From: Leisingera daeponensis | Lineage (GTDB): Bacteria; Pseudomonadota; Alphaproteobacteria; Rhodobacterales; Rhodobacteraceae | Assembly: GCF_019801465.1 (NCBI RefSeq) | Contig: NZ_JAHVJA010000005.1 | Coordinates: 1-64,000 of the forward strand | Direction of reading: 5' to 3' | DNA: 64,000 bases | Shown: positions 46,848 through 64,000 of the stretch, in pieces | Numbering within the stretch: the first letter of the stretch is position 1 | Layout of the letters: each line of letters opens with the position of its first letter | Translations under genes and position numbers: made by a program | The notes under the pieces: generated by a model | The model's input: only the letters and a program-made list of their open reading frames with translations | The model's database searches: none | What the model was told of the DNA's origin: nothing

Positions 46848-47678
46848 ATGACAAAACGATCCTATTACGCGCCGGAAGGCGGGCTGCCGCCGCAGACCCA
46901 GCTGCTCACCGACCGCGCCATGTTCACCGAGGCCTACGCGGTGATCCCCAAGGGCACGATGAGCGATATCGTGGCAAGCCTTTTGCCGTTCTGGGACAAG
47001 GCGCGCTTCTGGGTGCTGTCGCGGCCCCTGTCCGGCTTTGCCGAGACGTTTTCCCAGTACATTGCAGAAGTGCAGCCCGGCGGCGGCAGCGACCGGCCGG
47101 AAACCGAGCCCGGCACCGAAGCGGTGCTGTTCGTGGTGCAGGGCGTCATGACCCTGACCATCGACGGCACCGCGCATGAGATGGAAGAAGGCGGCTATGC
47201 CTTCCTGCCGCCTCAGGCCAGCTGGAGCCTGCGCAACAACACCGGCGCGCCGGTACGGTTCCACTGGATCCGCAAGGCTTATCAAGCGGTTGCCGGGCTG
47301 GACGCTCCGGAGGCCTTTGTCACCAACGAAAATCACGTCGACCCCACCCCGATGCCGGAAACCGAGGGCAAATGGGCAACCACCCGGTTCGTGGATCCCA
47401 ACGACCTGCGCCACGACATGCATGTGACCATCGTCACCTTTGAGCCCGGCGCGGTGATCCCCTTTGCCGAGACTCATGTGATGGAGCACGGCCTGTATGT
47501 GCTGGAGGGCAAGGCGGTCTACAGGCTGAACCAGGACTGGGTCGAGGTTGAGGCCGGCGATTACATGTGGCTGCGCGCCTTCTGCCCGCAGGCCTGTTAT
47601 GCAGGCGGCCCGGGCAAGTTCCGCTATCTGCTGTACAAGGACGTGAACCGGCACATGCCGCTGGCGCCGTTGCGCTGA
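46848..47678 (+). CDS. allE: (S)-ureidoglycine aminohydrolase
   Basis: A 276-residue bicupin that converts (S)-ureidoglycine to (S)-ureidoglycolate and ammonia in ureide breakdown; Mn2+ is the usual metal. The second cupin carries the metal site in AETHVMEHGLYVLEG, and the C-terminus FRYLLYKDVNRHMPL is typical of AllE. The product is the substrate of AllA, encoded 8 kb downstream. It is monocistronic and convergent with bhcR. AGGAAAGG lies before the ATG. Confidence 0.92.
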   Translation: MTKRSYYAPEGGLPPQTQLLTDRAMFTEAYAVIPKGTMSDIVASLLPFWDKARFWVLSRPLSGFAETFSQYIAEVQPGGGSDRPETEPGTEAVLFVVQGVMTLTIDGTAHEMEEGGYAFLPPQASWSLRNNTGAPVRFHWIRKAYQAVAGLDAPEAFVTNENHVDPTPMPETEGKWATTRFVDPNDLRHDMHVTIVTFEPGAVIPFAETHVMEHGLYVLEGKAVYRLNQDWVEVEAGDYMWLRAFCPQACYAGGPGKFRYLLYKDVNRHMPLAPLR

Positions 47679-47727
47679 CGGCGGGGGGAGGCCGGCCTGA
47701 AAATGTGCCCGGGCGCTGCCCGGCTGG

Positions 47728-48561
47728 TCAGCCGGGCGGGGTCTGATCCGCTGCCGGCGCCCCCAATCCATAAGACAGTTTCTCTGCGGCGTCCTTGACC
47801 AGGGCGCCGATGCCGTTGATGCCCCCATCCGGCATCCGCGCAGTGGGGCCGGAGATGGAGATCCCCGCCAGCACCTCTCCCTGCATGCCGAAGACAGGCG
47901 CTGCGACGCAGCGCATGCCCGGCGCCTTTTCCTCATCATCAAAGGACCAGCCGCGGCTTCGGATCCGGGCCAGATCAGCGCGGAGCGCCTCTACGGACGT
48001 CAGGGTCTTTTCTGTGAACCGCTCCAGTGTCCGGCCGCGCAGGAAACGGGCCAGCTGATCTTCCCCGAAGCAGCTGAGCAGCGCCTTTCCGATGCCCGAA
48101 GCATGCATCGGCGAGGTGGTGCCGGGCGGAAAGAAGGCGCGGATGGATTCATGGGTTTCCACCTGGCTCACGAACATCACGTCGCCGCCGCGTTCGATCC
48201 CGAGGTTGGAGGTCTCGCCGGTGGCCTCCATCAGTTCGCGCATCACCGGCCGCGCCCGCTCGATCACGCTGGAGCGGCGCAAGAAGGCGGAGCCGAGGCG
48301 AAAGGCCATCGCGCCGATGTGCCAGGTCTGCGACTGCGGATCCATCTCGACGATCTGGCGCGCCTCCAGGGTGGCCAGCACCCGGTACATGGTGGCCGCC
48401 GACTGATCCAGCGCTGTGGACAGTTCGGTCAGCGTCATGCCGCTAGCGCCGGCCAGCGCATCCAGCACATCCAGCGCCCGGTCAAGCGATTGAATCGTGG
48501 CCGGCTGGCTGGCGGAATCAAAGCTTTTGGGGCGGCCCTTGCGGCGCGGTGCTTGCGGCAT
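47728..48561 (-). CDS. bhcR: IclR-family regulator of the beta-hydroxyaspartate cycle, BhcR
   Basis: A 277-residue IclR regulator. A winged helix covers about residues 20-85 (ALDVLDALAGASGMTLTELST; DQSAATMYRVLATLE). The effector domain contains ASGIGKALLSCF and GMRCVAAPVFGMQGEVLAGISISGP. It is divergent from bhcA. In Paracoccus the equivalent BhcR activates the bhc genes and responds to glyoxylate (known). The ATG at 48561 has GGGAGG 7 bases upstream; an in-frame TTG six bases earlier is less likely. Confidence 0.88.
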   Translation of the reverse strand: MPQAPRRKGRPKSFDSASQPATIQSLDRALDVLDALAGASGMTLTELSTALDQSAATMYRVLATLEARQIVEMDPQSQTWHIGAMAFRLGSAFLRRSSVIERARPVMRELMEATGETSNLGIERGGDVMFVSQVETHESIRAFFPPGTTSPMHASGIGKALLSCFGEDQLARFLRGRTLERFTEKTLTSVEALRADLARIRSRGWSFDDEEKAPGMRCVAAPVFGMQGEVLAGISISGPTARMPDGGINGIGALVKDAAEKLSYGLGAPAADQTPPG

Positions 48562-48607
48562 TTTCAAGCCTCCCGAGGCAATTCAATAAGCAGCTTATGG
48601 ATAAAAC

Positions 48608-48696
48608 TGAAAATCGCTTCTGTACAGTGAAAAAACTAAAGCCTTTGAATTTATAGTGAAAATCACGCATTTTTGCATTTCTGAAAGCTTTTTTCA
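48608..48696. promoter_or_regulatory. bhcR/bhcA control region with TGAAA repeats
   Basis: Within a strikingly AT-rich 198-bp spacer, four TGAAA elements lie in the same direction (48608, 48628, 48657, 48682). Two of them have extended similarity (TGAAAATCGC and TGAAAATCAC). The last forms a 15-bp dyad, TGAAA-N5-TTTCA (48682-48696). A CTGTACAG palindrome lies at 48620-48627. These are candidate BhcR sites. Confidence 0.45.
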
Positions 48697-48759
48697 AAAA
48701 AATTTCCCTGCGTGCGTCTTGTCTCTAAAGTGAAGGAAATCGCCACAGGAGGGCACGAC

Positions 48760-49950
48760 ATGAGCTTTCAAAACCCGGTTTTCATTCCCGGTCCCACCAA
48801 CATGCCCGAAGCGCTGCGCAAGGCAGTGGACATGCCGACGCTGGACCACCGCTCGCCGCTGTTCGGCCAGATCCTGCACCCCGCGCTGGAAGGCGTGAAG
48901 AAGGTTCTGAAAAGCGAAACCGCCGAGATCTTCGTCTTCCCGTCCACCGGCACCGGCGGCTGGGAAACCGCGATCACCAACACACTGAACGCCGGTGACA
49001 AGGTTCTGGCGGCGCGCAACGGCATGTTCAGCCACCGCTGGATCGACATGTGCCAACGCCACGGGCTGGACGTGCAGGTGGTTGAAACCCCCTGGGGGCA
49101 GGGCATCCCGGCCGACCGCTACGAGGAAATCCTTACCGCCGACACATCGCACGAGATCAAGGTGGTTTTGGCGACCCACAACGAAACCGCAACCGGTGTG
49201 AAATCCGACATCGCCGCCGTCCGCCGTGCGTTGGATGCGGCCGGCCACCCGGCGCTCTTGTTTGTCGACGGCGTGTCCTCCATCGCCTCGATGGACTTCC
49301 GCATGGACGAATGGGGTGTCGACATTGCCGTCACCGGCTCGCAGAAGGGTTTCATGCTGCCGCCGGGGCTGGCCATCGTCGGCTTCTCACCACGGGCAAT
49401 GGAGGCCGCCAAGACCGCGACCCTCCCGCGCACCTTCTTTGATATCAAGGACATGGCCGCAGGCTACGCCAACAGCGCCTACCCCTACACGCCGTCGGTC
49501 GGCCTGCTGAACGGTCTGAACATGGCCTGTGGTATGCTGCTGGATGAAGGGCTGGAGAATGTCTTTGCCCGCCACCACCGGATTGCTGAGGGCGTCCGCG
49601 CCGCAGTCCGCGCTTGGGGCCTGGAGCTGTGCGCGGTGTCGCCGGACGTCTACTCAGACAGCGTCAGCGCGATCCGCACGCCCGAAGGCTTTGACGCCAA
49701 CAAGTTCGTCAGCCTGGCGGCCGAGAAATACGGCGTCGCTTTCGGCACCGGTCTGGGTGAGGTCGCGGGCAAGGTGTTCCGCATCGGCCATCTGGGCAGC
49801 CTGACCGACGTGATGGCCCTGTCGGGCATCGCAACCGCCGAAATGGTCATGGCCGACCTTGGCCTGAACATTCAGCTGGGCTCTGGCGTGGCGGCGGCGC
49901 AGGACTACTACCGCGGCAACACCGCCTCCAGCGCCAAGGCTGCCGCCTGA
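48760..49950 (+). CDS. bhcA: Aspartate-glyoxylate aminotransferase BhcA
   Basis: A 396-residue class V, PLP-dependent aminotransferase. It moves the amino group of aspartate to glyoxylate, giving oxaloacetate and glycine. The start NPVFIPGPTNMPEALRKAV is typical of the serine-glyoxylate/aspartate-glyoxylate branch. The PLP Lys lies in TGSQKGFMLPPG near residue 195, with the conserved Asp in FVDGVSSIASMD. The ATG at 48760 has CAGGAGGG upstream. First gene of bhcABCD; function is assigned through the complete, correctly ordered cluster. Confidence 0.94.
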   Translation: MSFQNPVFIPGPTNMPEALRKAVDMPTLDHRSPLFGQILHPALEGVKKVLKSETAEIFVFPSTGTGGWETAITNTLNAGDKVLAARNGMFSHRWIDMCQRHGLDVQVVETPWGQGIPADRYEEILTADTSHEIKVVLATHNETATGVKSDIAAVRRALDAAGHPALLFVDGVSSIASMDFRMDEWGVDIAVTGSQKGFMLPPGLAIVGFSPRAMEAAKTATLPRTFFDIKDMAAGYANSAYPYTPSVGLLNGLNMACGMLLDEGLENVFARHHRIAEGVRAAVRAWGLELCAVSPDVYSDSVSAIRTPEGFDANKFVSLAAEKYGVAFGTGLGEVAGKVFRIGHLGSLTDVMALSGIATAEMVMADLGLNIQLGSGVAAAQDYYRGNTASSAKAAA

Positions 49951-49964
49951 TGAAGGATACCGCT

Positions 49965-50918
49965 ATGTATATCCCGACCTACGAGGACATGCTGGCTGCG
50001 CATGAGCGCATTCAGCCCCATATCCGCCGCACGCCGGTGCGCACCTCTGCCTACCTGAACGAGCTGACCGGGGCTGAGCTGTTCTTTAAGTGCGAGAACT
50101 TCCAGGAGCCGGGCGCCTTCAAGGTGCGCGGCGCGACCAACGCGGTGTTCGGGCTGGATGAGGAACAGGCGAAGAAGGGCGTCGCCACGCATTCTTCGGG
50201 CAACCATGCCTCCTGCCTGTCCTACGCCGCGATGCTGCGCGGCATTCCGTGCAACGTGGTCATGCCGCGCACCGCGCCGCAGGCCAAGAAGGACACCGTG
50301 CGCCGTTACGGCGGCAAGATCACCGAGTGCGAGCCCTCGACCTCCTCGCGCGAGGAGACCTTCGCCAAGGTTCAGGCCGAGACCGGCGGCGATTTCGTGC
50401 ATCCCTACAATGACCACCGCGTCATCGCGGGGCAGGGCACCTGCGCCAAGGAGTTCGTGGAGCAGACCGACGGGCTCGACATGGTTGTGGCCCCGATCGG
50501 CGGCGGCGGCATGATCTCCGGCACCTGCCTGACGCTGTCCAACCTGGCGCCGGAAACCCAGGTGATCGCGGCAGAGCCGGAGCAGGCCGATGACGCCTAC
50601 CGCAGCTTCAAGGCGGGATACATCATCGCCGATGATGCGCCCAAGACCATCGCAGATGGCCTGCTGGTTCCGCTGAAGGATCTGACCTGGCATTTCGTCA
50701 GCAATCACGTCAGCGAGATCTACACCGCCTCGGACGCGGAGATCATCGAGGCGATGAAGCTGATCTGGAAGCACCTGCGGATCGTGATGGAGCCGTCCTC
50801 CGCGGTTCCGCTCGCCACCATTCTGAAAAACAAGGACGCCTTCGCGGGCAAACGCGTGGGCCTGATCGTCACCGGCGGCAATGTCGACCTCGACAAGCTG
50901 CCCTGGATGAACAGCTAA
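49965..50918 (+). CDS. bhcB: Beta-hydroxyaspartate dehydratase BhcB
   Basis: A 317-residue fold-II PLP enzyme of the serine/threonine dehydratase family. It removes water from erythro-beta-hydroxyaspartate to give iminosuccinate. The PLP Lys is in PGAFKVRGATNA near residue 54, the phosphate loop in GGGGM, and SSGNHASCLSYA is the substrate loop. AAGGA lies 7 bases before the ATG at 49965; another ATG at 49950 overlaps the bhcA stop (TGATG). Both starts agree with coupled translation. Confidence 0.94.
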   Translation: MYIPTYEDMLAAHERIQPHIRRTPVRTSAYLNELTGAELFFKCENFQEPGAFKVRGATNAVFGLDEEQAKKGVATHSSGNHASCLSYAAMLRGIPCNVVMPRTAPQAKKDTVRRYGGKITECEPSTSSREETFAKVQAETGGDFVHPYNDHRVIAGQGTCAKEFVEQTDGLDMVVAPIGGGGMISGTCLTLSNLAPETQVIAAEPEQADDAYRSFKAGYIIADDAPKTIADGLLVPLKDLTWHFVSNHVSEIYTASDAEIIEAMKLIWKHLRIVMEPSSAVPLATILKNKDAFAGKRVGLIVTGGNVDLDKLPWMNS

Positions 50919-50934
50919 ACTGGGGAACTAAACA

Positions 50935-52098
50935 ATGAACGCACAGACAAATTTTGATCAGCTCGAAGTTGGCTATGACGTCCCGGCGGTCCCGGGCATG
51001 GACGAGGCTGACATCCAGACCCCGGCGCTGGTCCTCGACCTGGACGCGCTGGAGCGCAACATCAAGAAAATGGGCGATTATGCCAAGGCGCATGGCATGC
51101 GCCACCGGGTGCACGGCAAGATGCACAAGTCGGTGGATGTGGCCAAGCTGCAGGAAAAACTCGGCGGCGCGGTTGGCGTCTGCTGCCAGAAGGTCTCCGA
51201 GGCCGAGGTTTTTGCCCGCGGCGGCATCAAGGACATCCTGGTTTCCAACCAGGTCCGCGACCCGCTGAAGATCGACCGTCTGGCCCGCCTGCCCAAGCTG
51301 GGTGCGCGCACCATCGTCTGCGTTGATGACATCGACAACGTGGCCGACCTGTCGGCAGCGGCGCAAAAGCACGACACCGAGCTTGAAGTCTTTGTCGAGA
51401 TCGACTGCGGCGCGGGCCGCTGCGGCGTGACCACGACTGAGGCGGTTGTTGAAATCGCCAAGGCCGTGAACGCGGCAGAGAACCTCAAGTTCTCCGGCAT
51501 CCAAGCCTATCAGGGCGCCATGCAGCACATGGACAGCTACGAGGACCGCAAGGCCAAGCTGGACATCGCCATCGCGCAGGTTGCCGATGCGGTCGAAGGC
51601 TTGAAGAAGGAAGGCATCGAGTGCGAGCTGGTCTCCGGCGGCGGCACCGGCTCCTACTACTTCGAGTCGAACTCGGGTGTTTACAACGAACTGCAGTGCG
51701 GCTCCTACGCCTTCATGGACGCGGACTATGGCCGCATCCTGGACAAGGACGGCAACCGGATCGACCAGGGCGAGTGGGAAAACGCCTTCTTCCTGCTGAC
51801 CCAGGTGATGAGCCACGCCAAGGCCGACAAGGCCATCGTGGACGCAGGCCTCAAGGCGCAATCCGTGGACAGCGGCCTGCCCTTCATCTTCGGCCGCGAC
51901 GACGTGGAATACATCAAATGCTCGGACGAGCACGGTGTGGTCTCGGACCCGAACGGCGCGCTGAAAGTGGGCGACAAGCTGCGCCTTGTGCCTGGCCACT
52001 GCGACCCGACCGCCAACGTGCATGACTGGTACGTCGGCGTCCGCAACGGCAAGGTCGAAACCGTCTGGCCCGTCTCGGCCCGCGGCAAAGCCTACTAA
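50935..52098 (+). CDS. bhcC: Beta-hydroxyaspartate aldolase BhcC
   Basis: A 387-residue PLP enzyme of the D-threonine aldolase-like family. It condenses glycine and glyoxylate to erythro-beta-hydroxyaspartate, the entry step of the cycle. The barrel start QTPALVLDLDALERNI is followed by the PLP Lys in VHGKMHKSVDVA near residue 61. The metal site is the C-terminal PGHCDPT motif. It lies 16 bp after bhcB. Confidence 0.94.
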   Translation: MNAQTNFDQLEVGYDVPAVPGMDEADIQTPALVLDLDALERNIKKMGDYAKAHGMRHRVHGKMHKSVDVAKLQEKLGGAVGVCCQKVSEAEVFARGGIKDILVSNQVRDPLKIDRLARLPKLGARTIVCVDDIDNVADLSAAAQKHDTELEVFVEIDCGAGRCGVTTTEAVVEIAKAVNAAENLKFSGIQAYQGAMQHMDSYEDRKAKLDIAIAQVADAVEGLKKEGIECELVSGGGTGSYYFESNSGVYNELQCGSYAFMDADYGRILDKDGNRIDQGEWENAFFLLTQVMSHAKADKAIVDAGLKAQSVDSGLPFIFGRDDVEYIKCSDEHGVVSDPNGALKVGDKLRLVPGHCDPTANVHDWYVGVRNGKVETVWPVSARGKAY

Positions 52099-52116
52099 GC
52101 AAACGATCCCCGAACT

Positions 52117-52154
52117 GGCGGAGGTGCGCATGCCGCCCTCCGCCGGCTTTTTTG
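52117..52154 (+). terminator. Intrinsic terminator inside the bhc operon
   Basis: Arms GGCGGAGG (52117-52124) and CCTCCGCC (52137-52144) form a perfect 8-bp stem, followed by GGCTTTTTT. It lies between bhcC and bhcD, ending 17 bp before the bhcD ATG. It could attenuate bhcD expression. Confidence 0.75.
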
Positions 52155-52170
52155 TTGAGGAGAAACAGAC

Positions 52171-53136
52171 ATGTATATCGTTCCGGAAAAGGCGATTGCG
52201 GATCTTGTGACCCGCGAGGCCTCGTTCGATGCGGTCGAGAAGGTCTTTGCCGCGATGGCCGCAGGCGATGCCTACAACTTCCCCGTCGTGCGCGAGGCAA
52301 TCGGCCACGAGGACGCGCTTTACGGCTTCAAGGGCGGCTTTGACTGCGCGGGCCTGACCTTGGGCCTGAAGGCCGGCGGCTACTGGCCGAACAACCTGGA
52401 AAAGCGCGGGCTGATCAATCACCAGTCCACCGTCTTCCTGTTCGACCCCGACACCGGCAAGGTGAAGGCGATGGTGGGCGGCAACCTTCTGACCGCGCTG
52501 CGCACCGCCGCGGCGTCTTCGGTGTCGATTAAGCATCTGGCCCGCCAGGATGCCAAGGTGATCGGCATGATCGGCGCAGGCCATCAGGCCACCTTCCAGC
52601 TGCGCGCCGCGCTGGAGCAGCGCAGCTTCGAGAAAGTGATTGGCTGGAACCTGCATCCGGAAATGCTGCCCAACCTGCAAGAGGTGGCCGACGAGGCCGG
52701 GGTGCCGTTTGAGGCGGTTGAGCTGGACGGCATGCGCGAAGCGGATGTGATCATCTCGATCACCTCGTCGTTTGATGCGATACTGAAGGCCGGGCAGGTC
52801 AGCCCCGGCGCCCATATCGCCTGCATGGGCACCGACACCAAGGGCAAGCAAGAAGTCGATCCCCAGCTGCTGGTCAAAGCGGATGTGTTCACTGACGAGG
52901 TCGCGCAGTCGGTCTCCATCGGCGAGGCGCAGCACGCAGTGGCGCAGGGCCTGATCGAGGAATCCGATGTAGCCCAGATCGGTGCAGTGATCAACGGCAA
53001 CAACCCGGGCCGCACCTCGGACGATCAGATCACGCTGTTCGACGGCACCGGCGTCGGCCTGCAGGATCTGGCGGTCGCGGCCTCGGTCGTTGAGGTCGCG
53101 GTGGAAAAGGGCATCGCCATCGAGGTCGATTTCTAA
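52171..53136 (+). CDS. bhcD: Iminosuccinate reductase BhcD
   Basis: A 321-residue protein of the ornithine cyclodeaminase/mu-crystallin family. It reduces iminosuccinate to aspartate with NAD(P)H, closing the beta-hydroxyaspartate cycle. The dinucleotide motif is MIGAGHQATFQLRA near residue 130, and the family substrate loop reads GGYWPNNLEKRGLINHQS near residue 68. GAGGAG lies upstream of the ATG. A terminator hairpin precedes the gene and a stronger one follows it. Confidence 0.94.
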   Translation: MYIVPEKAIADLVTREASFDAVEKVFAAMAAGDAYNFPVVREAIGHEDALYGFKGGFDCAGLTLGLKAGGYWPNNLEKRGLINHQSTVFLFDPDTGKVKAMVGGNLLTALRTAAASSVSIKHLARQDAKVIGMIGAGHQATFQLRAALEQRSFEKVIGWNLHPEMLPNLQEVADEAGVPFEAVELDGMREADVIISITSSFDAILKAGQVSPGAHIACMGTDTKGKQEVDPQLLVKADVFTDEVAQSVSIGEAQHAVAQGLIEESDVAQIGAVINGNNPGRTSDDQITLFDGTGVGLQDLAVAASVVEVAVEKGIAIEVDF

Positions 53137-53182
53137 GCCCCAGCCAGAAACATTTTCTGCAATTATCCGCATAGCGGAGCGG

Positions 53183-53214
53183 CAGGAGAGAGGTGTACCT
53201 CTCTCCTGTTTTTT
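53183..53214 (+). terminator. Strong terminator after bhcD
   Basis: Arms CAGGAGAGAGGT (53183-53194) and ACCTCTCTCCTG (53197-53208), perfect over 12 bp, then TTTTTTC. It ends the bhc transcript just before the UreI/AmiS-like gene. Confidence 0.88.
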
Positions 53215-53232
53215 CTTTGAGGGACTCCAAAC

Positions 53233-53745
53233 ATGTTTCTGGGATTGAGCCTGCTGGTGGTCGGCGTGGTGCTGTGCCTGAACGGCGTATGGCAGATGGG
53301 CCGGATCCAGGACCGCGAGATCATATTGATCAACACGGTTGCGGCGCTGGTGTTCTTTGCAGTTGTTCTAATGATCGCACTGGCTGCGGAGCAGCCGGCG
53401 GATCTGCTGGATGCGGGCATGACATTGCTTTTTGGAACCACTTACTTGTGGGTCGCCTACAACCGGACCTTTGTTTCCAGCGGCGAGGGACTGGGCTGGT
53501 TCAGCGGCTTTGTGGCGCTGACCGCAGCACCCATGGCCCTGCGAGTGCTGGCACAGGCGGACGGGCTGTTCGATGTCTGGCTGGCCGCCTGCTGGGCAGC
53601 CTGGTCTGGGCTGTGGTTCCTGTATTTTCTGAACCTCGCGCTCCGGCGCGGCAGCCCCCGTCTGACGGCCATGGCAACCCTTCTGTGCGGGGTCTTCACA
53701 GGCTGGCTTCCGGGGCTAGCGGTTCTGCACGGGCTGACCACCTGA
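53233..53745 (+). CDS. UreI/AmiS-family urea or amide channel
   Basis: A 170-residue inner-membrane protein with six predicted helices. It matches the AmiS/UreI family: an N-terminal GLSLLVVGVVLCLNGVW, the middle motif LLFGTTYLWVAYNRTF (compare the FGFTYLYAA type of UreI), and WAAWSGLWFLYFLNLAL with TGWLPG near the end. UreI is a proton-gated urea channel in Helicobacter; AmiS moves short amides. It is placed among ureide genes that release urea, so urea passage is the likely role. GAGGGACT precedes the ATG. It has its own terminator. Confidence 0.85.
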   Translation: MFLGLSLLVVGVVLCLNGVWQMGRIQDREIILINTVAALVFFAVVLMIALAAEQPADLLDAGMTLLFGTTYLWVAYNRTFVSSGEGLGWFSGFVALTAAPMALRVLAQADGLFDVWLAACWAAWSGLWFLYFLNLALRRGSPRLTAMATLLCGVFTGWLPGLAVLHGLTT

Positions 53746-53758
53746 GATCCTTGTAAGA

Positions 53759-53785
53759 AAAGCCGGCCCACCAAGGGCCGGCTTT
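53759..53785. terminator. Bidirectional terminator between channel and permease genes
   Basis: Arms AAAGCCGGCCC (53759-53769) and GGGCCGGCTTT (53775-53785), loop ACCAA. It has A-rich and T-rich flanks suited to both convergent genes. Confidence 0.85.
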
Positions 53786-53809
53786 CGCATTCCATTCATT
53801 CCGTTTGTT

Positions 53810-55246: not shown

Positions 55247-55317
55247 GAAGGGAATCTCCTGTCGGTCATGGGGATCTCGCCGCTTCTTGTTTTTTGTTGG
55301 CGGCTTGAGGGGAGTGG

Positions 55318-55809
55318 TCAGTCCGAGACCACGGTAAAAGGCTCCTTGAACCAGTGTTCTTCGAGGTTCGGCGAGGTTCCGATCCGGTCAACAACGATGT
55401 ATTGGCCGGGCGCGCCAAGTGGCGCGAGGACCCCGTGCCAGGTGCCGCGGTGCAGGTTGATGGACTGGCCAGGCCGGCTGATGAATGCCTGCAGGTTGAC
55501 CGGCACGCCGCCGTCGTCATCCGCCACCACCACCAGCATCGGCACGCCGCTGACCGGGACAAACGCCTGGCTGCCTTCCGGGTGGCGCTCCACCATGTCC
55601 ACCTTGTGGGGCAGATGGCGGGCCTTGGCGTCAAACAGGCTGATCCCGGCCCGCCCATCCGGGCCGAAATCCAGGGAAGCGCGGTCGTGGTGGCGGCCGC
55701 ACATGCCCTGATTGATCATCTTGTCCGGTGCGCCCGAGACCTCGATCACGTCGCCGTACGGCGCAAAAGCCGCTGCGGTCAGCGGCTCCGCTGTCAGCCG
55801 ACCGCTCAT
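55318..55809 (-). CDS. allA: Ureidoglycolate lyase
   Basis: A 163-residue cupin-fold lyase that splits (S)-ureidoglycolate to glyoxylate and urea. The family pattern is visible in LTAAAFAPYGDVIEV at the start, RHPEGSQAFVPVSG in the middle, and LHRGTWHGVLAPLG near residue 120. The ATG overlaps the stop of the allantoinase fusion gene by 4 bp (ATGA). Its glyoxylate product feeds the bhc genes encoded nearby. Confidence 0.93.
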   Translation of the reverse strand: MSGRLTAEPLTAAAFAPYGDVIEVSGAPDKMINQGMCGRHHDRASLDFGPDGRAGISLFDAKARHLPHKVDMVERHPEGSQAFVPVSGVPMLVVVADDDGGVPVNLQAFISRPGQSINLHRGTWHGVLAPLGAPGQYIVVDRIGTSPNLEEHWFKEPFTVVSD

Positions 55810-57221
55810 GGCAGCAGGTCCTGCAGCCGGAACTGGGCAATCCGCTCCACCTGGCGGCAGGCCTCGTCGAACTCGGTTGCCCGGTCGTTGCGGATCCTGC
55901 GGTGGAACGCTTCCATGATCGACGCTTTGTTGTGGTCGCGCACCGCGATGATGAAGGGGAAGCCGTGCTTCTCCACATATTCGCTGTTGAGCCGGGTGAA
56001 GGTCTCGCGCTCCTCATCGGTCAGCATATCAAGGCCGGCGCTCGACTGTTCCGAGGTGCTCTCCGCCGTCAGGCGGCCGGCAGCAGCCAGCTTGCCCGCC
56101 AGATCCGGGTGCGCGGTCAGCACACCAAGGCGCTCATCCTCGGATGCGGTGCGGAAAATCCGGCACAGCGCGTTGTGGATGCCGGCCGCGCAGTCATGCG
56201 CCGGACCCAGTTCAAGGTCAAAGGCGCGGTCGGCGATCCAGGGCGAATGTTCAAAGATCGAACCGAACTTGGCAACAAATTCCTCGCGCGCCATCCGGCT
56301 GGGGCGCTCGCGCTTGACCGGCGGATGGGTCTCCGCCCAATGTTCGGCAATGTCGACCCTGCGCGGACACCACACGCCCTCAAAACCTTGAATATACTCG
56401 ATGAAGCGCTTGAGGCCAGCGATCTTGCCCGGACGGCCCACCAGACGGCAGTGCAGGCCGATGGTCATCATCTTCGCAGCACCTTCCTCACCCTCGGCAT
56501 AGATGACGTCAAAGGCATCCTTCAGATACTGGAAGAAATGCTCGCCCGTGATCCAGCCCGGCGAATTGGCAAACCGCATGTCATTGGCTTCCAGCGTGTA
56601 GGGGATGATCAGCTGTTCGCGCCCGCCGGTTTCCAGCCAGTAGGGCAGGTCGTCGTCATAAGTGTCTGAGATGTAGTCAAAACCGCCTTCTTCGGCGACT
56701 AGGCGTACGGTGTTGGCGCTGCAGCGGCCGGTGTACCAGCCGCGCGGGTGCTCGCCCACGACCTCGGTGTGCAGGCGCACCGCTTCGGCGATGGCGGCAC
56801 GCTCTTCCTCTTCCGCCATGTCCTTGTGCTCGACCCATTTCAGGCCGTGGCTGGCGATCTCCCAATCCGCGTCCTTCATCGCCTGCACCTGTTCGGGCGA
56901 GCGGGCCAAGGCAGAGGCAACGCCGTAGATCGTCAGCGGGATTCCGGCGCCGGTGAACAGCCGGTGCAGCCGCCAGAATCCGGCACGGCTGCCGTATTCA
57001 TAGATCGATTCCATGTTCCAGTGGCGCTGGCCGGGCCATTGCGCGGCACCGGGAATGTCGGACAGAAAGGCTTCGGAAGCCGCATCCCCGTGCAGGATGC
57101 AGTTCTCGCCGCCTTCTTCATAGTTGAGGACGAATTGCACGGCAGCTTTGGCCCCATTGGGCCACTGCGGGTCAGGTGCCTTGGCACCGTACCCGCGCAA
57201 GTCACGAGGATAGCGCGTCAC
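55806..57221 (-). CDS. puuE: Fused allantoinase (PuuE type) and OHCU decarboxylase
   Basis: A 471-residue bifunctional protein. Residues 1 to about 305 are the polysaccharide-deacetylase-like allantoinase PuuE (YPRDLRGYGAKAPDPQWPNG start; EIASHGLKWVEHKD; SHGxxW-type site), hydrolysing allantoin to allantoate. Residues about 306-471 form the OHCU decarboxylase UraD (REEFVAKFGSIFEHSPWIADRA; HGFPFIIAVRDHNK), which makes (S)-allantoin from OHCU. Two separated steps of urate breakdown are thus on one chain. The start is GTG at 57221 with GGAGA upstream. It leads the transcript puuE/uraD-allA-permease. Confidence 0.93.
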   Translation of the reverse strand: MTRYPRDLRGYGAKAPDPQWPNGAKAAVQFVLNYEEGGENCILHGDAASEAFLSDIPGAAQWPGQRHWNMESIYEYGSRAGFWRLHRLFTGAGIPLTIYGVASALARSPEQVQAMKDADWEIASHGLKWVEHKDMAEEEERAAIAEAVRLHTEVVGEHPRGWYTGRCSANTVRLVAEEGGFDYISDTYDDDLPYWLETGGREQLIIPYTLEANDMRFANSPGWITGEHFFQYLKDAFDVIYAEGEEGAAKMMTIGLHCRLVGRPGKIAGLKRFIEYIQGFEGVWCPRRVDIAEHWAETHPPVKRERPSRMAREEFVAKFGSIFEHSPWIADRAFDLELGPAHDCAAGIHNALCRIFRTASEDERLGVLTAHPDLAGKLAAAGRLTAESTSEQSSAGLDMLTDEERETFTRLNSEYVEKHGFPFIIAVRDHNKASIMEAFHRRIRNDRATEFDEACRQVERIAQFRLQDLLP

Positions 57222-57271
57222 GACTGGTCTCCTGTTTTTTATCCCTTATAGAGCAAAATAATCCTCGGGGG

Positions 57272-57292
57272 CTTTCAGTAAATTTTTGAAAG
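57272..57292. promoter_or_regulatory. Operator-like palindrome between puuE/uraD and uraH
   Basis: CTTTCA-N9-TGAAAG, a 21-bp dyad in the 149-bp divergent spacer. Its 19-bp core (TTTCA-N9-TGAAA) has the same geometry as the dyad upstream of xdhA at 61645-61663. Confidence 0.55.
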
Positions 57293-57370
57293 AACTTTTT
57301 GACTCTTCCTTCTGTATGCATTGGGCTGAACCGCGCATACCTGAAGAAACGGAATTGATAGGAGGCTGGC

Positions 57371-57727
57371 ATGGCCGGATTTCTGACCACCCATGTGCTG
57401 GACACCGCCCGCGGCTGCCCCGCGGAAGGGCTGAAGATCGACCTGTACCGGATCGAAGGCAAAGAGCGCATCCACCTGCGCAGCCTGACCACCAATGACG
57501 ACGGGCGCACCGATGAGCAGATCCTGCCCGCAGGCGAGTTTGCCACCGGCACCTATGAGCTGGTGTTCCATGCAGGTGGCTACCTGCGCGCCACCGGTCA
57601 GGCCGGCGCCGATCCGCTGTTCCTGGACGAGGTGCCGCTGCGTTTCGGCATGAGCGAGGCAGACAGCCACTACCACGTTCCGCTCCTGCTGTCGCCCTAC
57701 GGCTACTCCACATACCGCGGCAGCTGA
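57371..57727 (+). CDS. uraH: 5-hydroxyisourate hydrolase (transthyretin-like)
   Basis: A 118-residue transthyretin-related hydrolase that opens 5-hydroxyisourate to OHCU. The active-site His is in [11 protein letters not shown] at the start, Arg in [14 protein letters not shown], His in [10 protein letters not shown], and the C-terminal YRGS signature is intact. The length is usual and there is no signal peptide, so it is cytosolic. GGAGG precedes the ATG. It is divergent from the puuE-uraD fusion that takes its product. Confidence 0.95.
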
Positions 57728-57777
57728 GCCGCGCACCCCAAGATACCTCTCCTCCCGCTTGGCATCCGCCGGCGGTT

Positions 57778-57807
57778 CCCGTCCCAGGCAACTGGGGCGG
57801 GCTTTTT
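57778..57807 (+). terminator. Terminator after uraH
   Basis: Arms CCCGTCCCAG (57778-57787) and CTGGGGCGGG (57792-57801), one G-U pair, loop GCAA, followed by CTTTTT. It abuts the stop of the convergent LysR gene. Confidence 0.82.
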
Positions 57808-58715
57808 CATTCCGAAGGCAGCGACGCCTGGATGTGGTCCACCATGAAATCCATGAACAGCCGCACCTTGGGGTCCTGATGGCGGCGGTGGACGTACAGG
57901 CAGGCCATCTGGATCGGGATCGGCGGCTCCTCCGCCAGCACCGGCACCAGCCGTCCGGAGGCCAGATGCTCCGAAATCTCGAACACCGGCTTCAGGATGA
58001 TCCCGTGCCCCTCCAGCGCCCAACTGGTCAGCACGTCGCCGTGATCGGATTCAAACGGGCCGGTGACCGTCACCCGCTTGACCCCGTCCTGACTGCGCAG
58101 GGGCCACTGGAACTCCGGCGCGCCGGGGTAGCGCAGGTTCAGGCAGTCATGGGCCTCTGTCTTCAGTTCCTCACTGTTTTTCGGCTGGCCGCGCTGGCGA
58201 ATGTACTCCGGTGCCGCGCACAGCACCCGCGGGCAGTCGGCAATCTTGCGGATGCGCAGGTTCGAGTCCTCCGGCACGCCGAGGAAAAACGCCGCGTCCA
58301 GTCCCTCGGCCGCCAGGTCCAGCTTGCGGTCCGACAGCCGCAGCCGGATTGAGATCAGCGGGTAGGCTTCCTTGAACTTGGGCACCGCCGGCGCGATCAG
58401 CCGCTGCCCCAGCCCCAAGGGCGCCGCCACATACAGCGTGCCGCGCGGGGTTTGGGTGACGCTGCTGATGTCGGCCTCGGCCTCATCCACCGCTTCCAGA
58501 ATCTTGACTGCGCCGTGGTAGAACAGGTTGCCCTGTTCCGTCGGATTGAGCAGCCGCGTGGTGCGCTGGAACAGGCGCACATTCAAGTGATCCTCCAGCT
58601 GTGAAATCCGCGACGACGCCACGGCCGCCGAGATCCGCATGTCACGCGCGGCGGCCGACATGTTGCCAAGTTCATAAACACGGACAAAGGTGCGGATATT
58701 GTCGAGATAGGCCAT
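57807..58715 (-). CDS. LysR-family regulator beside puuD
   Basis: A 302-residue LysR regulator of the AaeR/DhmR-like group. A winged helix covers residues 1-60 (FVRVYELGNMSAAARDMRIS; SSRISQLEDHLNVRLFQRTTR). The effector domain contains FFLGVPEDSNLRIRKIADC and RVLCAAPEYI. It is divergent from puuD with a long inverted repeat between them, and closely similar to the LysR protein at 60634-61551. It probably controls puuD or the purine genes in general. The effector is unknown. Confidence 0.85.
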   Translation of the reverse strand: MAYLDNIRTFVRVYELGNMSAAARDMRISAAVASSRISQLEDHLNVRLFQRTTRLLNPTEQGNLFYHGAVKILEAVDEAEADISSVTQTPRGTLYVAAPLGLGQRLIAPAVPKFKEAYPLISIRLRLSDRKLDLAAEGLDAAFFLGVPEDSNLRIRKIADCPRVLCAAPEYIRQRGQPKNSEELKTEAHDCLNLRYPGAPEFQWPLRSQDGVKRVTVTGPFESDHGDVLTSWALEGHGIILKPVFEISEHLASGRLVPVLAEEPPIPIQMACLYVHRRHQDPKVRLFMDFMVDHIQASLPSE

Positions 58716-58728
58716 TCAAGTATTCTTT

Positions 58729-58779
58729 GTGTTATTTTGAAACAGCTTGGATTTTTTACCTAATACATGAAAATAACAC
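58729..58779. promoter_or_regulatory. Inverted repeat between lysR and puuD
   Basis: Perfect 10-bp arms GTGTTATTTT (58729-58738) and AAAATAACAC (58770-58779) separated by 31 bp. The right arm overlaps a near match to the uraH/xdhA-type operator (TTTTA-N9-TGAAA, 58754-58772). It is centred in the 105-bp divergent spacer. Confidence 0.6.
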
Positions 58780-58820
58780 CATGCTCTAGTGTCCTTGCCA
58801 AAGCTTATGAGGAGAGAACA

Positions 58821-60080
58821 ATGGAAGAGCTTGTGATCATGTGGGACTGGCTGGGCTTTGCGGTCCGCTGGCTTCACGTCATCACCGCCATTGCCTGGAT
58901 CGGATCGTCCTTCTACTTCGTCGCGCTGGACCTTGGCCTGCGGAAAGTTCCGCATCTGCCGGTCGGCGCGCATGGCGAGGAATGGCAGGTCCACGGCGGC
59001 GGTTTCTACCACATTCAAAAATACCTGGTGGCGCCGGAGAACATGCCGGACCATCTGATCTGGTTCAAATGGGAAAGCTACGCGACCTGGCTGTCGGGTG
59101 CGGGCCTCTTGATGATCGTCTACTGGGCGGGCGGCGAGCTGTACCTGATCGACTCGACCAAGGCCGATCTGGCCCTGTGGCAGGGTATCCTGATTTCCGG
59201 CGCATCGCTCAGCATCGGCTGGCTGGTCTATGACTACCTGTGCAAATCGCCCCTGGGGGAAAAGCCGACCTTCCTGATGGTGCTGCTGTTCGTGCTGCTG
59301 GTCGCCATGGGTTGGGGCTACAACCAGATCTTCACCGGCCGCGCAGTGATGCTGCATCTGGGTGCCTTTACGGCTACCATCATGACTGCAAACGTCTTTT
59401 TCATCATCATGCCGAACCAGCGCATCGTGGTGAAAGATCTGCAGGAAGGCCGCACGCCGGATGCGAAATACGGCAAAATCGCCAAGCTGCGTTCGACCCA
59501 CAACAACTACCTGACGCTGCCGGTCGTGTTCTTGATGCTGTCCAACCACTACCCGCTGGCGTTTGCCACCGAGTACAACTGGCTGATCGCGGCGCTGGTG
59601 TTCCTGATGGGCGTGACCATCCGCCACTACTTCAACAGCAACCACGCGGGCACCTCCAACCCGACCTGGACCTGGCCGGTGACCGCCATCCTGTTCATCG
59701 GCATCATGATCCTGAGCCAGGCACCGCTGCAGCAGGACACCTACGAAGAGTCCGAGGCGCGGGAGCTCACCAGGAGCGAGCAGGTCTTTGCCAGCAACCT
59801 GCACTTCGAGGACGTGATGAATGTGGTGCCGGGCCGCTGCGCCATGTGCCACGCGCGGGAACCCTACTATGACGGCATCCGCCGCGCGCCCAAGAACGTG
59901 CTGCTGGAGACGCCGGCTGACGTGGCAAAATACGCCAAGGAAATCTACCTTCAGGCTGGCGCCACCGTGGCGATGCCGCCGGCGAATGTCACCCATATGG
60001 AAGAGGACGAGCGCGCTTTGATCCGACGCTGGTATAGCAGCGCTTCCAAGGATCTGCCCTTCGCGCTGGCCTCGAACTGA
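58821..60080 (+). CDS. puuD: Membrane urate oxidase PuuD with C-terminal cytochrome c domain
   Basis: A 419-residue integral membrane urate hydroxylase. About eight helices cover residues 8-300 (WLGFAVRWLHVITAIAWIGSSFYFV start; many His for heme or substrate). A periplasmic cytochrome c domain has CAMCH near residue 340. It converts urate to 5-hydroxyisourate and passes electrons into the respiratory chain instead of making hydrogen peroxide. This replaces soluble uricase. The ATG at 58821 follows GAGGAGAG. Monocistronic, with its own terminator. Confidence 0.94.
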   Translation: MEELVIMWDWLGFAVRWLHVITAIAWIGSSFYFVALDLGLRKVPHLPVGAHGEEWQVHGGGFYHIQKYLVAPENMPDHLIWFKWESYATWLSGAGLLMIVYWAGGELYLIDSTKADLALWQGILISGASLSIGWLVYDYLCKSPLGEKPTFLMVLLFVLLVAMGWGYNQIFTGRAVMLHLGAFTATIMTANVFFIIMPNQRIVVKDLQEGRTPDAKYGKIAKLRSTHNNYLTLPVVFLMLSNHYPLAFATEYNWLIAALVFLMGVTIRHYFNSNHAGTSNPTWTWPVTAILFIGIMILSQAPLQQDTYEESEARELTRSEQVFASNLHFEDVMNVVPGRCAMCHAREPYYDGIRRAPKNVLLETPADVAKYAKEIYLQAGATVAMPPANVTHMEEDERALIRRWYSSASKDLPFALASN

Positions 60081-60560: not shown

Positions 60561-60586
60561 TGCAACTCCAGGTGCTCCAAAACTTG

Positions 60587-60614: not shown

Positions 60615-60633
60615 CCCTCGTGCCGCCGGGAGA

Positions 60634-61551
60634 CTAGTTCCCGGTTTCGATGCGCCGGAAGGCGGCGAGCCCTTGTTTCACTGCATAATCCACGAATAGC
60701 CGGATCTTGGGGTCCTGCAGTTTCCGGTGCGGGTAAAGGCAGCCGAAGATCGTCGCCTCAGGCGGTGTGTCCGGCAGCACCTCGACCAAGGCGCCGCTGC
60801 GCAGATGCGCGGCCACGTCGAACCGCGGCTTGTTGACGATGCCGCGCCCGTCAAGCGCCCAGCCTGTAAGCACATCGCTGTCATCGGCGTCATACTTTCC
60901 CGACACCTCCAGCTTGCGCGGCCCCTCCGGGGTCGACAGCGTCCAGAAATATTCGGGCGATCGCGGGTAGCGCAGCAGCAGGCAATTGTGGCCGGTCAGC
61001 AGATCCTCCGGCACCTGAGGGGTGCCGTGGCGCTCCAGATACTCCGGCGCGGCGCACAGCACCCTGGCGCAATCGGCGATCTTGCGCATCTTCAGGGTGG
61101 AGTCGTGCGGGGTGCCGATAAAGAAAGCCACATCCAGCCCGTCGGCCAGGATATCAACCTTTCGATCCGACATCCGCATCCGGATTTCGGTCGCAGGATA
61201 GTCCTCGACAAATCCCGGCACCAGCGGCGCGATAATGCGGCGGCCGACACCCAGGGGCGCGGTCACCCGGATCACCCCGCGCGGTGCAGCTGAAAACTGG
61301 GAAACCACCGTCTCGGCGTCCTCAATCGATTCGAGCACCTTTTTGGCTTCGGCATAGAACAGCTGCCCGACCTCGGTCGGGGTCAGCGATCTCGTGGTGC
61401 GGTTGAACAAACGGACACCAAGGTGCTTTTCAAGCTCCTTGATGCGCTTGCTGGCGACCGCAGGAGTCAGCCGCAGGTCGCGCCCGCCGGAGGTGATGCT
61501 GCCCAGTTCGACGACTCGGGTAAACACCCGCAGGGATTCCAGATAAGACAT
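60634..61551 (-). CDS. LysR-family regulator divergent from xdhA
   Basis: A 305-residue LysR regulator with a winged helix at residues 1-60 (FTRVVELGSITSGGRDLRLT) and an effector domain with FFIGTPHDSTLKMRKIADC. That segment nearly repeats the one in the LysR at 57807-58715, so the two are paralogs. It is divergent from xdhA with a palindromic operator-like site between. A role in xanthine dehydrogenase control is likely from position. Confidence 0.85.
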   Translation of the reverse strand: MSYLESLRVFTRVVELGSITSGGRDLRLTPAVASKRIKELEKHLGVRLFNRTTRSLTPTEVGQLFYAEAKKVLESIEDAETVVSQFSAAPRGVIRVTAPLGVGRRIIAPLVPGFVEDYPATEIRMRMSDRKVDILADGLDVAFFIGTPHDSTLKMRKIADCARVLCAAPEYLERHGTPQVPEDLLTGHNCLLLRYPRSPEYFWTLSTPEGPRKLEVSGKYDADDSDVLTGWALDGRGIVNKPRFDVAAHLRSGALVEVLPDTPPEATIFGCLYPHRKLQDPKIRLFVDYAVKQGLAAFRRIETGN

Positions 61552-61644: not shown

Positions 61645-61663
61645 TTTCAACAGGGTGTTGAAA
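61645..61663. promoter_or_regulatory. Operator-like palindrome upstream of xdhA
   Basis: TTTCAACA-GGG-TGTTGAAA, a perfect dyad of 8-bp arms with a 3-base centre, between the divergent lysR and xdhA genes. Its outer TTTCA-N9-TGAAA frame matches the dyad between puuE/uraD and uraH. Confidence 0.6.
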
Positions 61664-61758
61664 GCCTTTCGCGATTGCGGCCGTTAACCGGGGCAGTCGG
61701 ACAAGGTAAAAATGACTGAACAGAATTAGAAGCTGTCCAGCGACTACTTGGAGGCCAG

Positions 61759-63222
61759 ATGGAACATCAAAACGACATTCGCTTTCTGCTGAACGGGCGG
61801 GAGCTTTCGGTCAAGGACGTGAAGGCGACCACGACCCTGTTGGATTTCCTCCGGCTGGAGAAGCGCCTGACCGGCACCAAGGAAGGCTGCGCCGAGGGCG
61901 ACTGCGGCGCCTGCACCGTGCTGGTGGGCCGTCTTCATAATGGCGCGCTGCGTTACGAGGCGGTGAACGCCTGCATCCGTTTCCTGGCGTCTCTCAATGG
62001 CTGCCACGTTGTGACGGTTGAGCATCTGTCCGGCCCCAAGGGCCGTCTGCACCCGGTGCAGCAGGCGATGGTGGAGTACCACGGCAGCCAATGCGGCTTC
62101 TGCACCCCGGGTTTCGTGATGTCGCTTTATGCGCTGTGGATGGAAAACCCGCAGCCCAACGAAGCGGAAGTGGAGACCGCCGTGCAGGGCAATCTGTGCC
62201 GCTGCACCGGCTATGAGCCGATCGTGAAGGCAGCACTTGCGGTGAACCAGTACGGCACCCCGGCCAATGATTACCTGACCACCGAGCGTGAGAGCCTGAC
62301 CGCCAAGCTGAAGGCGATCCAGCCGCAGGCCCGCGTTGTGACCGGCCCCGAGGACGACCGCGCCATCCTGCCGCTGGATGCGGCGGATCTGGCAGAGGTG
62401 CTGGCCGAGAATCCCAAGGCGACCATTGTTGCCGGCTCCACCGATGTGGGCCTGTGGGTCACCAAGTTCATGAAGCCGATTTCTCCGGTGGTGTTTGTCG
62501 CCCACCTGGAGGAGCTGAAGGCGGTTGAGCTGACGGATGAGGCGCTGATCATCGGTGCCGGCGTCACCTATACCGAGAGCGAAGCGGCGATCCGCGATGC
62601 TTTCCCGCATCTGAGCGCCTACTGGGACCGCATCGCCGGCTGGCAGGTGCGCAACATGGGCACCATCGGCGGCAATATCGCCAACGGCTCGCCCATTGGG
62701 GACACCCCGCCGGTACTGATCTCGCTGGGCGCCGAGGTGACGCTGCAGAAGAAGGGCGGTTCGCGCACGCTGCCGCTGGAGGATTTCTTTATCGACTACG
62801 GCAAGCAGGACCGCGAGCCGGGCGATTTCGTCGCCTCGATCCGCATCCCGCTGCGCCGGGACGGGCAGATCGACGCCGCCTACAAGATTTCCAAGCGCCG
62901 GGACGAGGATATCTCCTCGGTTGCGGCGGGTGTCAGCGTCACCGTGAAGGACGGCATGATCACCTCTGCGCGCATCGCATTCGGCGGCATGGCCGCAACG
63001 CCCAAACGTGCAGCCGGCGCCGAGGCGGCCCTGGTGGGCCAGTCCTGGAGCGAGGCCGCTTTTGAGGACGCAGCGGAAGCGGTGAAGCAAGACTTCACCC
63101 CGCTCAGCGATTGGCGCGCCTCTTCGAACTACCGGTCGCTGACGGCCAGCAACCTGCTGCGCCGCTTCTACCTGGAACATGACGCGGGAACCGCCGGTGC
63201 CGTCCGGCTGGCCGTCGCCTGA
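61759..63222 (+). CDS. xdhA: Xanthine dehydrogenase small subunit
   Basis: A 487-residue subunit carrying two [2Fe-2S] clusters and FAD. Cluster ligands are in GCAEGDCGACTVL (residues about 43-55) and in CGFCTPGF plus CRCTGY (about 113-155). The FAD-binding domain has IVAGSTDVGL and GTIGGNIANGSPIGDTPP. It passes electrons from the molybdenum subunit to NAD+. GGAGG lies before the ATG. It is followed by xdhB after 12 bp. Confidence 0.95.
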   Translation: MEHQNDIRFLLNGRELSVKDVKATTTLLDFLRLEKRLTGTKEGCAEGDCGACTVLVGRLHNGALRYEAVNACIRFLASLNGCHVVTVEHLSGPKGRLHPVQQAMVEYHGSQCGFCTPGFVMSLYALWMENPQPNEAEVETAVQGNLCRCTGYEPIVKAALAVNQYGTPANDYLTTERESLTAKLKAIQPQARVVTGPEDDRAILPLDAADLAEVLAENPKATIVAGSTDVGLWVTKFMKPISPVVFVAHLEELKAVELTDEALIIGAGVTYTESEAAIRDAFPHLSAYWDRIAGWQVRNMGTIGGNIANGSPIGDTPPVLISLGAEVTLQKKGGSRTLPLEDFFIDYGKQDREPGDFVASIRIPLRRDGQIDAAYKISKRRDEDISSVAAGVSVTVKDGMITSARIAFGGMAATPKRAAGAEAALVGQSWSEAAFEDAAEAVKQDFTPLSDWRASSNYRSLTASNLLRRFYLEHDAGTAGAVRLAVA

Positions 63223-63234
63223 GGAGATTTTGAG

Positions 63235-64000
63235 ATGAAAGACCATCAGACCATCAGCGGCGCCGTTCACCATGACCGCCAGCACGACAGCGCCATCAAG
63301 CACGTGACGGGCCGCGCCGAATACACTGACGATATCGCCGAGCCCTATGGCACACTGCACGCCTACCTGGGTGTCTCCACCGTGGCGCATGCCAATATCA
63401 AAGGCATCGATTTGTCAGCAGTGCGCGCTGCGCCCGGCGTGGTGGATGTGCTGACCGCCGATGACATTCCCGGTGTCAACGACATCAGCCCCACCGGCAA
63501 GCATGACGAGCCGGTGTTCCCGACCGAGAAAGTCGAATTCCACGGCCAGCCGATGTTTGCGGTCATCGCCGAAACCCGCGATGCCGCCCGCCGTGCGGCT
63601 GAGCTGGCGCAGGTGGATTACGAGGTGCTGCCGCACGCCCTGGACCCGGTCCAGGCGCAGGAGGCCGGTTATCCGATGATCACCGACCCGCTGAAGCTGG
63701 AGCGCGGCGATGTGGAAGCTGGGCGTAAGGGCGCTGCCCACCGCATTCAGGCGCAGATGACCGTCGGCGGCCAGGATCATATGTATCTGGAGGGCCACAT
63801 CGCCTTTGCCATCCCCGGCGAAGACGAAGATGTGACCGTGCATTGCTCCACCCAGCACCCGAGCGAGGCGCAGCATATGGTGGCGCATGTTCTGGGCGTG
63901 GCGAACAACGCGGTGACCGTCAACGTGCGCCGGATGGGCGGCGGCTTTGGCGGCAAGGAAAGCCAGATGAACCTGTTCTGCGCGGTGGCTGCAATTGCTG
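63235..64000 (+). CDS. xdhB: Xanthine dehydrogenase large (molybdenum) subunit, partial
   Basis: The first about 255 residues of the molybdopterin-binding subunit, cut by the window edge. The start shows HVTGRAEYTDDI and HAYLGVSTVAHANIKGIDL. Later GGQDHMYLEGHIAFAIPGED is the conserved Q-x-x-x-E block, and RRMGGGFGGKE is the molybdopterin loop. It oxidises hypoxanthine and xanthine to urate. GAGGAG lies upstream of the ATG. An xdhC gene would be expected beyond the edge. Confidence 0.95.
   Translation, partial: MKDHQTISGAVHHDRQHDSAIKHVTGRAEYTDDIAEPYGTLHAYLGVSTVAHANIKGIDLSAVRAAPGVVDVLTADDIPGVNDISPTGKHDEPVFPTEKVEFHGQPMFAVIAETRDAARRAAELAQVDYEVLPHALDPVQAQEAGYPMITDPLKLERGDVEAGRKGAAHRIQAQMTVGGQDHMYLEGHIAFAIPGEDEDVTVHCSTQHPSEAQHMVAHVLGVANNAVTVNVRRMGGGFGGKESQMNLFCAVAAIA

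Follow-up and report, generated by a model that had tools for sequence, protein, structure and literature searches.

Beta-hydroxyaspartate cycle genes in a purine degradation region of Leisingera daeponensis: a probable purine-to-carbon island

The DNA considered here comprises the opening 64 kb of contig NZ_JAHVJA010000005.1 (247 kb) from Leisingera daeponensis (Alphaproteobacteria; Rhodobacteraceae), whose draft genome amounts to 4.89 Mb in 48 contigs. Within this stretch of 64,000 nucleotides, hereafter the window, the genes of the beta-hydroxyaspartate cycle (bhcRABCD) are embedded in genes for purine degradation. An earlier note had placed bhcRABCD between allE and a block of permease, allA, puuE-uraD, uraH, puuD and xdhAB genes, and this position was confirmed, the genes scoring over their NCBIfam or Pfam cut-offs. 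Curated NCBIfam cut-offs were used for most gene calls, and Pfam cut-offs for allA, uraH, puuD and the AmiS/UreI gene. At these cut-offs the gene identities are established, and the enzyme activities assigned below are predictions. Additions to the earlier gene list are the AmiS/UreI gene after bhcD, modABC upstream, and xdhC and guaD past the window edge.

The island opens on the plus strand with allE (46848-47678), predicted to encode a bifunctional allantoicase/(S)-ureidoglycine aminohydrolase (NF040771, 508 bits, cut-off 350), followed on the minus strand by bhcR (47728-48567), which encodes an IclR-type regulator (NF045644, 418.7 bits, cut-off 350). Divergent from bhcR, on the plus strand, are bhcA (48760-49950; aspartate-glyoxylate aminotransferase; NF045640, 761.5 bits, cut-off 650), bhcB (49950-50918; beta-hydroxyaspartate dehydratase; NF045641, 586.5 bits, cut-off 550), bhcC (50935-52098; 3-hydroxy-D-aspartate aldolase; NF045642, 773.3 bits, cut-off 690) and bhcD (52171-53136; iminosuccinate reductase; NF045643, 589.8 bits, cut-off 500). 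All four enzymes score over equivalog cut-offs and their frames are open; that of bhcA is open from 48712, with a start probably at 48760, by analogy with L. thetidis. The AmiS/UreI gene (53233-53745; PF02293, 155.8 bits, cut-off 25) starts 96 bases 3' of bhcD on the same strand and encodes a membrane protein predicted to be a urea (or amide) channel.

Beyond it, three genes are read from the minus strand, namely an NCS2 xanthine permease gene (53810-55246; TIGR03173, 425 bits, cut-off 414), allA (55318-55809; ureidoglycolate lyase, yielding glyoxylate and urea; PF04115, 193.8 bits, cut-off 23) and a puuE-uraD fusion (55806-57221), which joins allantoinase to OHCU decarboxylase (TIGR03212, 523.5 bits; TIGR03164, 215.6 bits; both over cut-off). 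On the plus strand are uraH (57371-57727; hydroxyisourate hydrolase; PF00576, 123 bits) and puuD (58767-60080; membrane urate oxidase with one CXXCH motif; PF06181, 442 bits). Two LysR-type regulator genes on the minus strand, one in the uraH/puuD interval (57807-58715) and one ahead of xdhA (60634-61551), were called by LysR models, none shown above a curated cut-off. The xanthine dehydrogenase genes close the window on the plus strand: xdhA (61759-63222; small subunit; TIGR02963, 670 bits, cut-off 467) and the first part of xdhB (63235-64000; Pfam domains), which ends at contig position 65553. Downstream of xdhB on the contig are xdhC (called by Pfam domains), then one open reading frame (ORF), then guaD for guanine deaminase (TIGR02967, 548 bits, cut-off 375). 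This ORF is as long as a permease gene that the L. thetidis record shows at that position, and has no Pfam match.

XdhAB, PuuD, UraH, UraD, PuuE and AllA span the steps from xanthine to allantoate and from ureidoglycolate to glyoxylate, so that the whole route from xanthine to glyoxylate appears to be encoded, provided that AllE is bifunctional and covers the allantoate step, on which the earlier note is silent. The window AllE also passes two single-function models, with higher scores of 538 and 534; E. coli AllE reaches 150 bits on the bifunctional model against its cut-off of 350. The L. thetidis record of AllE is named bifunctional allantoicase/(S)-ureidoglycine aminohydrolase, and Puggioni (2014) reportedly divided the AllE family into bifunctional and single-function types. 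Because the window AllE fits the bifunctional model and E. coli AllE does not, we predict an enzyme of the allantoicase type, with urea and not ammonia as the product. Three AllC-type homologues in the genome score over the broad TIGR01879 cut-off, but none reaches the AllC equivalog cut-off of 598 (best 235; E. coli AllC control 767), and E. coli-like AllC was found in none of the 85 family stretches compared.

Competing fates of glyoxylate and urea were counted in 21 Leisingera genomes, the window's included. Neither glyoxylate carboligase nor urea carboxylase scores over its cut-off in any of them, and urease alpha does so in three, the window's genome not among these; for all three enzymes weaker matches below the cut-off exist. 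In the window's genome, a draft in 48 contigs, neither urease nor urea carboxylase is found over cut-off. The lack of these competing enzymes at model cut-offs is an observation; what it implies for metabolism is predicted. Since urease occurs in 3/21 genomes and urea carboxylase in 0/21, the urea from AllE and AllA appears to be unusable in most of the genus. For the window's genome, the lack of both enzymes over cut-off makes the nitrogen of the purine ring look largely unusable, and carbon the likelier gain. Between the two net glyoxylate-assimilating routes that were checked, the hydroxyaspartate cycle would be the only one present; malate synthase was outside the search. The AmiS/UreI gene was found in 17 copies in 16/21 Leisingera, every copy beside bhc. 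As two of the three urease-bearing genomes also carry it, the channel is not simply a replacement for urease.

A survey of bhc neighbourhoods, as the earlier note had suggested, showed that the linkage to purine genes recurs both within the genus and across the family. Neighbouring genes were found by tblastn with the window proteins, by which diverged genes may have been missed. In the other Leisingera, purine genes lie by bhc in 20/20 regions, which come from 19 of the other 20 genomes (G001 gives two; G015, with bhc on an 8-kb contig, falls outside). Among the best 80 named loci, 48 contain at least one of allE, allA, puuE-uraD, uraH and puuD in the stretch compared, and these 48 show 36 different gene strings, some merely truncated by the locus ends. 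The family sample consisted of 120 genomes drawn evenly, one per genus, 44 of which have BhcC over cut-off. We examined 45 family bhc places, the window's own excluded, with a flank of about 9.4 kb that is shorter at contig ends; the full bhcA-D set is present in 42. A core purine gene lies within that distance in 22/45 places, and all five core genes do so in 11; glcD was found in the flanks of none (0/45). Four further family places below the BhcC cut-off have no core purine gene. In a class-wide sample, BhcC scores over cut-off in 16/387 genomes, and the 16 places compared (two also in the family set) include four linked to purine genes and two linked to glcD. Another 37 class genomes have weaker BhcC matches only; of four such places compared, one is beside allE.

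The adjacency of bhc and purine genes is far beyond chance, because 21 of the 44 family bhc genomes have allA no more than 20 kb from bhcC (the window's included, places matched by eye), against about 0.4 expected by our own estimate under uniform placement in a 4-Mb genome. The linkage is conserved in varied gene orders, for example allE-bhc-permease-allA-puuE, bhc-lysR-xdhABC-guaD and puuE-allA-allE-bhc, among others, and is seen both on plasmids and on contigs several Mb long. In Paracoccus ferrooxidans, bhcD, a purine permease gene, a deaminase gene and uraH succeed one another on one strand at intervals of 39, -1 and 17 bases, a spacing that would be expected of an operon.

A quick tree of BhcABCD was made from 60 rows, after eight of 68 had been set aside for having no more than two of the four genes. 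The smaller of two groups, with 18 rows, contains one purine-linked member, and the larger, with 42 rows, contains 23. The linkage label needs 12 changes on this tree, at least nine of them forced by starred branches; shuffled labels need 19.2 on average, and 0/500 shuffles were as low as 12. The linkage therefore appears clustered, yet gained or lost several times, although rows with short flanks were counted as unlinked and can inflate the number of changes.

Several side observations were made in these neighbourhoods. A lone bhcC-like gene, for which no neighbouring bhcA, bhcB or bhcD was detected, stands beside allE in four loci (L215:8510-10512, L169:9130-11120, L258 and L259), and the copy in L215 passes the BhcC cut-off; such genes may point to an earlier, or another, function of the aldolase in ureide degradation. 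In loci L236 and L242, from genomes without a BhcC match, a BhcR-like IclR regulator (48% identity) adjoins allA. A GAPDH-like gene recurs as a bhc neighbour in 18 of 67 loci, for instance at L211:11578-12582, where it falls below the GAPDH-I cut-off (334 vs 367); it might serve gluconeogenesis from oxaloacetate. Other neighbours in the 67 loci are a 146-aa ORF in seven (perhaps a shadow frame), a TRAP permease-like gene in five (by eye) and five clusters in three; neighbour clustering of 37 unlinked loci gave mostly frames overlapping bhc.

The contig itself is very likely a plasmid, because its ParA/ParB pair is 98% and 83% identical to that of pBMJM1_3, a plasmid of L. thetidis. Window positions 46848-60080 are present to 80% or more in 17 plasmid records, every one from Leisingera. 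The contig also carries the type VI secretion genes tssC and tssM (at about 126-186 kb), 95-98% identical to those of pBMJM1_3. One Leisingera genome, G001, has two near-alike bhc-purine blocks on a single 127-kb contig, either a real duplication or an assembly artefact.

Upstream of allE, on the plus strand, is a predicted molybdate transporter, modABC. The call of modA (44098-44940) is a match to the solute-binding family, with the modABC order annotated in the L. thetidis plasmid; that of modB (44937-45641) follows from position and analogy with the same plasmid, and modC (about 45638-46723) scores 401 bits on TIGR02142 (cut-off 285). Xanthine dehydrogenase requires molybdenum. On their upstream side these genes are adjoined by genes for a chemoreceptor, CheB and CheD (39859-44033), and the L. 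thetidis counterpart region also has cheA, cheW and further che genes. The chemoreceptor (39859-42333) may serve chemotaxis to purines; among the purine-sensor residues described in the available part of PMC11245519 is an adjacent Trp-Phe pair, which was not visible on a check by eye, and no such role is claimed.

Regulation can be approached through the stretch between bhcR and bhcA. The palindrome TGAAA-N5-TTTCA occurs in 95 of 144 bhcR-bhcA intergenic stretches (a redundant set, rich in close relatives); 30 shuffles gave 0.5 on average and 3 at most, and the same half-sites at the other spacers from 3 to 8 gave one match in total. It is likely the BhcR operator, and its only exact copy in the window lies upstream of bhcA (48682-48696, plus strand). 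Copies with one mismatch are at 30973 and 38582, where 0.67 would be expected; a longer form of the motif occurs once in the genome and the reversed pattern three times, so that the count of the longer form proves nothing by itself. According to the part of PMC11323563 available, the bhc genes of P. denitrificans are activated by BhcR in the presence of glyoxylate, and a potential palindrome lies upstream of bhcA. If the motif is the BhcR site, BhcR would control bhc alone and answer to glyoxylate from any source, and the two LysR proteins may regulate the purine genes.

Taken together, these data lead us to regard the region as probably a purine-to-carbon island, carried by a probable plasmid of Leisingera. 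The cell would import guanine and xanthine and turn them into allantoate with GuaD, XdhAB, PuuD, UraH, UraD and PuuE, after which AllE, as an allantoicase, and then AllA would produce two urea and glyoxylate. BhcA-D would convert two glyoxylate into oxaloacetate, with no CO2 or ammonia lost within the cycle, and the AmiS/UreI protein would pass urea across the membrane. Urea would most likely be waste, since no urease or urea carboxylase is over cut-off in the genome. BhcR would sense glyoxylate and turn on bhc alone, and the LysR proteins probably govern the purine genes. The cycle costs one NADH for each oxaloacetate made from two glyoxylate. The absence of carbon or nitrogen loss that the earlier note gave for the cycle holds for it alone and not for the purine ring, of whose five carbons only two reach glyoxylate. 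Its idea of a single plan stands for the encoded steps, which run from guanine and xanthine to oxaloacetate; it does not extend to transcription, as the genes of the island lie on both strands with two LysR genes and the likely BhcR operator is exact at bhcA only.

A number of observations weigh against this interpretation. No core purine gene was found within about 9.4 kb of bhc in 23/45 family places, one of the 22 linked places is a lone bhcC, and 17 of the 18 rows in one bhc group of the tree are unlinked. Because allA is near-universal in the family (113/120; 43/44 with bhc vs 70/76 without, if the two draws are taken to comprise identical sets of 120 genomes), its mere co-occurrence with bhc is uninformative. 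A swap of glyoxylate modules within the family was tried and rejected, as E. coli-like gcl, hyi, glxR and glxK were found around allA in 0/40 cases, the test set being 40 of the 66 genomes of the family that have allA but lack a BhcC match at 1e-200; many relatives thus seem to degrade purines with no glyoxylate module beside allA. The AmiS/UreI gene is missing from 5/21 Leisingera. An exact operator shared with purine or glc genes was sought, and there is none in the window beyond that at bhcA and none near xdh or glc. Two of the three AllC-type homologues, both Zn-amidohydrolases, exceed the cut-off for a subfamily that bears the name allantoate amidohydrolase and could release ammonia from allantoate; because dihydropyrimidinase genes adjoin both, we read them, without proof, as pyrimidine enzymes. 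Finally, 21/21 Leisingera carry glcDE-like pairs, in none of which GlcD reaches its cut-off, and a glcDEF-like operon lies on another contig of the window's genome; of its three products only GlcF scores over cut-off. Given this operon, glycolate can probably feed the cycle too, and in nature it may be the more important source.

It is unlikely, in our view, that the cycle serves phytoplankton glycolate and stands beside purine genes as inherited plasmid cargo, with purine glyoxylate a minor input. The glc genes just described fit such a role, as do the published function in P. denitrificans, growth on glycolate and glyoxylate (available part of PMC11323563), the roughly half of bhc places unlinked to purine genes, and the glcD gene beside 2/16 class-wide bhc places. 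But in the family flanks glcD is found in 0/45 places and purine genes in 22/45, and cargo accords poorly with a linkage kept in varied gene orders, on several-Mb contigs and plasmids, and operon-like in P. ferrooxidans. Still less probable is an island mainly for nitrogen, in which the cycle would clear toxic glyoxylate and conserve amino groups. In its favour, guanine yields ammonia through GuaD, the genome holds AllC-like homologues of uncertain specificity, and E. coli can use allantoin anaerobically as its only source of nitrogen (available part of PMC12535856). This explanation is opposed by urease alpha not over cut-off in 18/21 Leisingera, the window's genome included, by urea carboxylase in 0/21, and by an AllE that scores as the bifunctional, urea-releasing type, as E. 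coli AllE does not. The proposal of the earlier note that the island points to carbon assimilation is strengthened by linkage across genera, by the lack of glyoxylate carboligase over cut-off in 21 Leisingera and by the lack of urease and urea carboxylase over cut-off in this genome, and is tempered by the glcDEF-like operon.

Compared with known systems, bhcRABCD of P. denitrificans has the same four enzymes and divergent IclR-type BhcR, but is tied to glycolate and glyoxylate (PMC11323563, as far as available), whereas the window cluster lies inside a purine island; in P. ferrooxidans, of the same genus as that model, purine genes lie directly behind bhcD. The allA-allR-gcl-hyi-glxR ... allE-allC region of E. 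coli, like the window, brings together ureide genes, an IclR-type regulator (AllR; same source) and a glyoxylate-assimilation module. Its glyoxylate module is the CO2-losing glycerate route, where the window has the carbon-saving cycle; it has AllC together with AllE, where the window has an AllE scoring as the urea-releasing type; and the 20 kb of it examined holds no xanthine dehydrogenase or urate oxidase, unlike the window island. The roseobacter Ruegeria pomeroyi DSS-3 is said to use xanthine as a carbon and nitrogen source, via xanthine dehydrogenase to glyoxylate, in a study (Cunliffe 2016) that reportedly makes no mention of the hydroxyaspartate cycle; that a roseobacter can use purines is already in the literature and not new. 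The 2016 study is cited in PMC9870897, PMC9038784 and PMC9723583. R. pomeroyi has urease genes (SPO1711-1713; available part of PMC9870897), in contrast to the 18/21 Leisingera with none over cut-off, and in diatom co-culture its xdhABC genes show diel ratios of 33.4, 33.0 and 25.8 (available part of PMC9038784). That glyoxylate is also derived from purines and allantoin is mentioned in a 2024 mBio paper (PMC11323563, in the part available). Among the titles and abstract openings compared from the literature on the cycle, none is on bhc-purine gene linkage, and we do not claim that it is unpublished. The individual parts are already known, and the present analysis adds the survey of how often they are paired, the absent urease and the channel gene.

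The hydroxyaspartate cycle has been described as a marine glycolate route, and with about half of the sampled bhc places linked to purine genes and 0/45 to glycolate oxidase, its substrate range is worth testing on purines. Its place in a ureide region that in E. coli holds another glyoxylate module would mean that one metabolic exit replaces another, more carbon-wasting one, and the pairing across many related genera suggests that these bacteria can use purines for carbon. We propose, tentatively, that urease-less Leisingera live on purines for carbon only, keeping two of the five ring carbons via the cycle and discarding the ring nitrogen as urea through the channel behind bhcD, and that, more widely, one branch of the cycle was possibly shaped by purines and not by glycolate. 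If this is true, a purine eater would be a source of urea for nearby algae, and a bacterium that keeps purine carbon and gives back the nitrogen in the form of urea would be an unexpected link between two element cycles.

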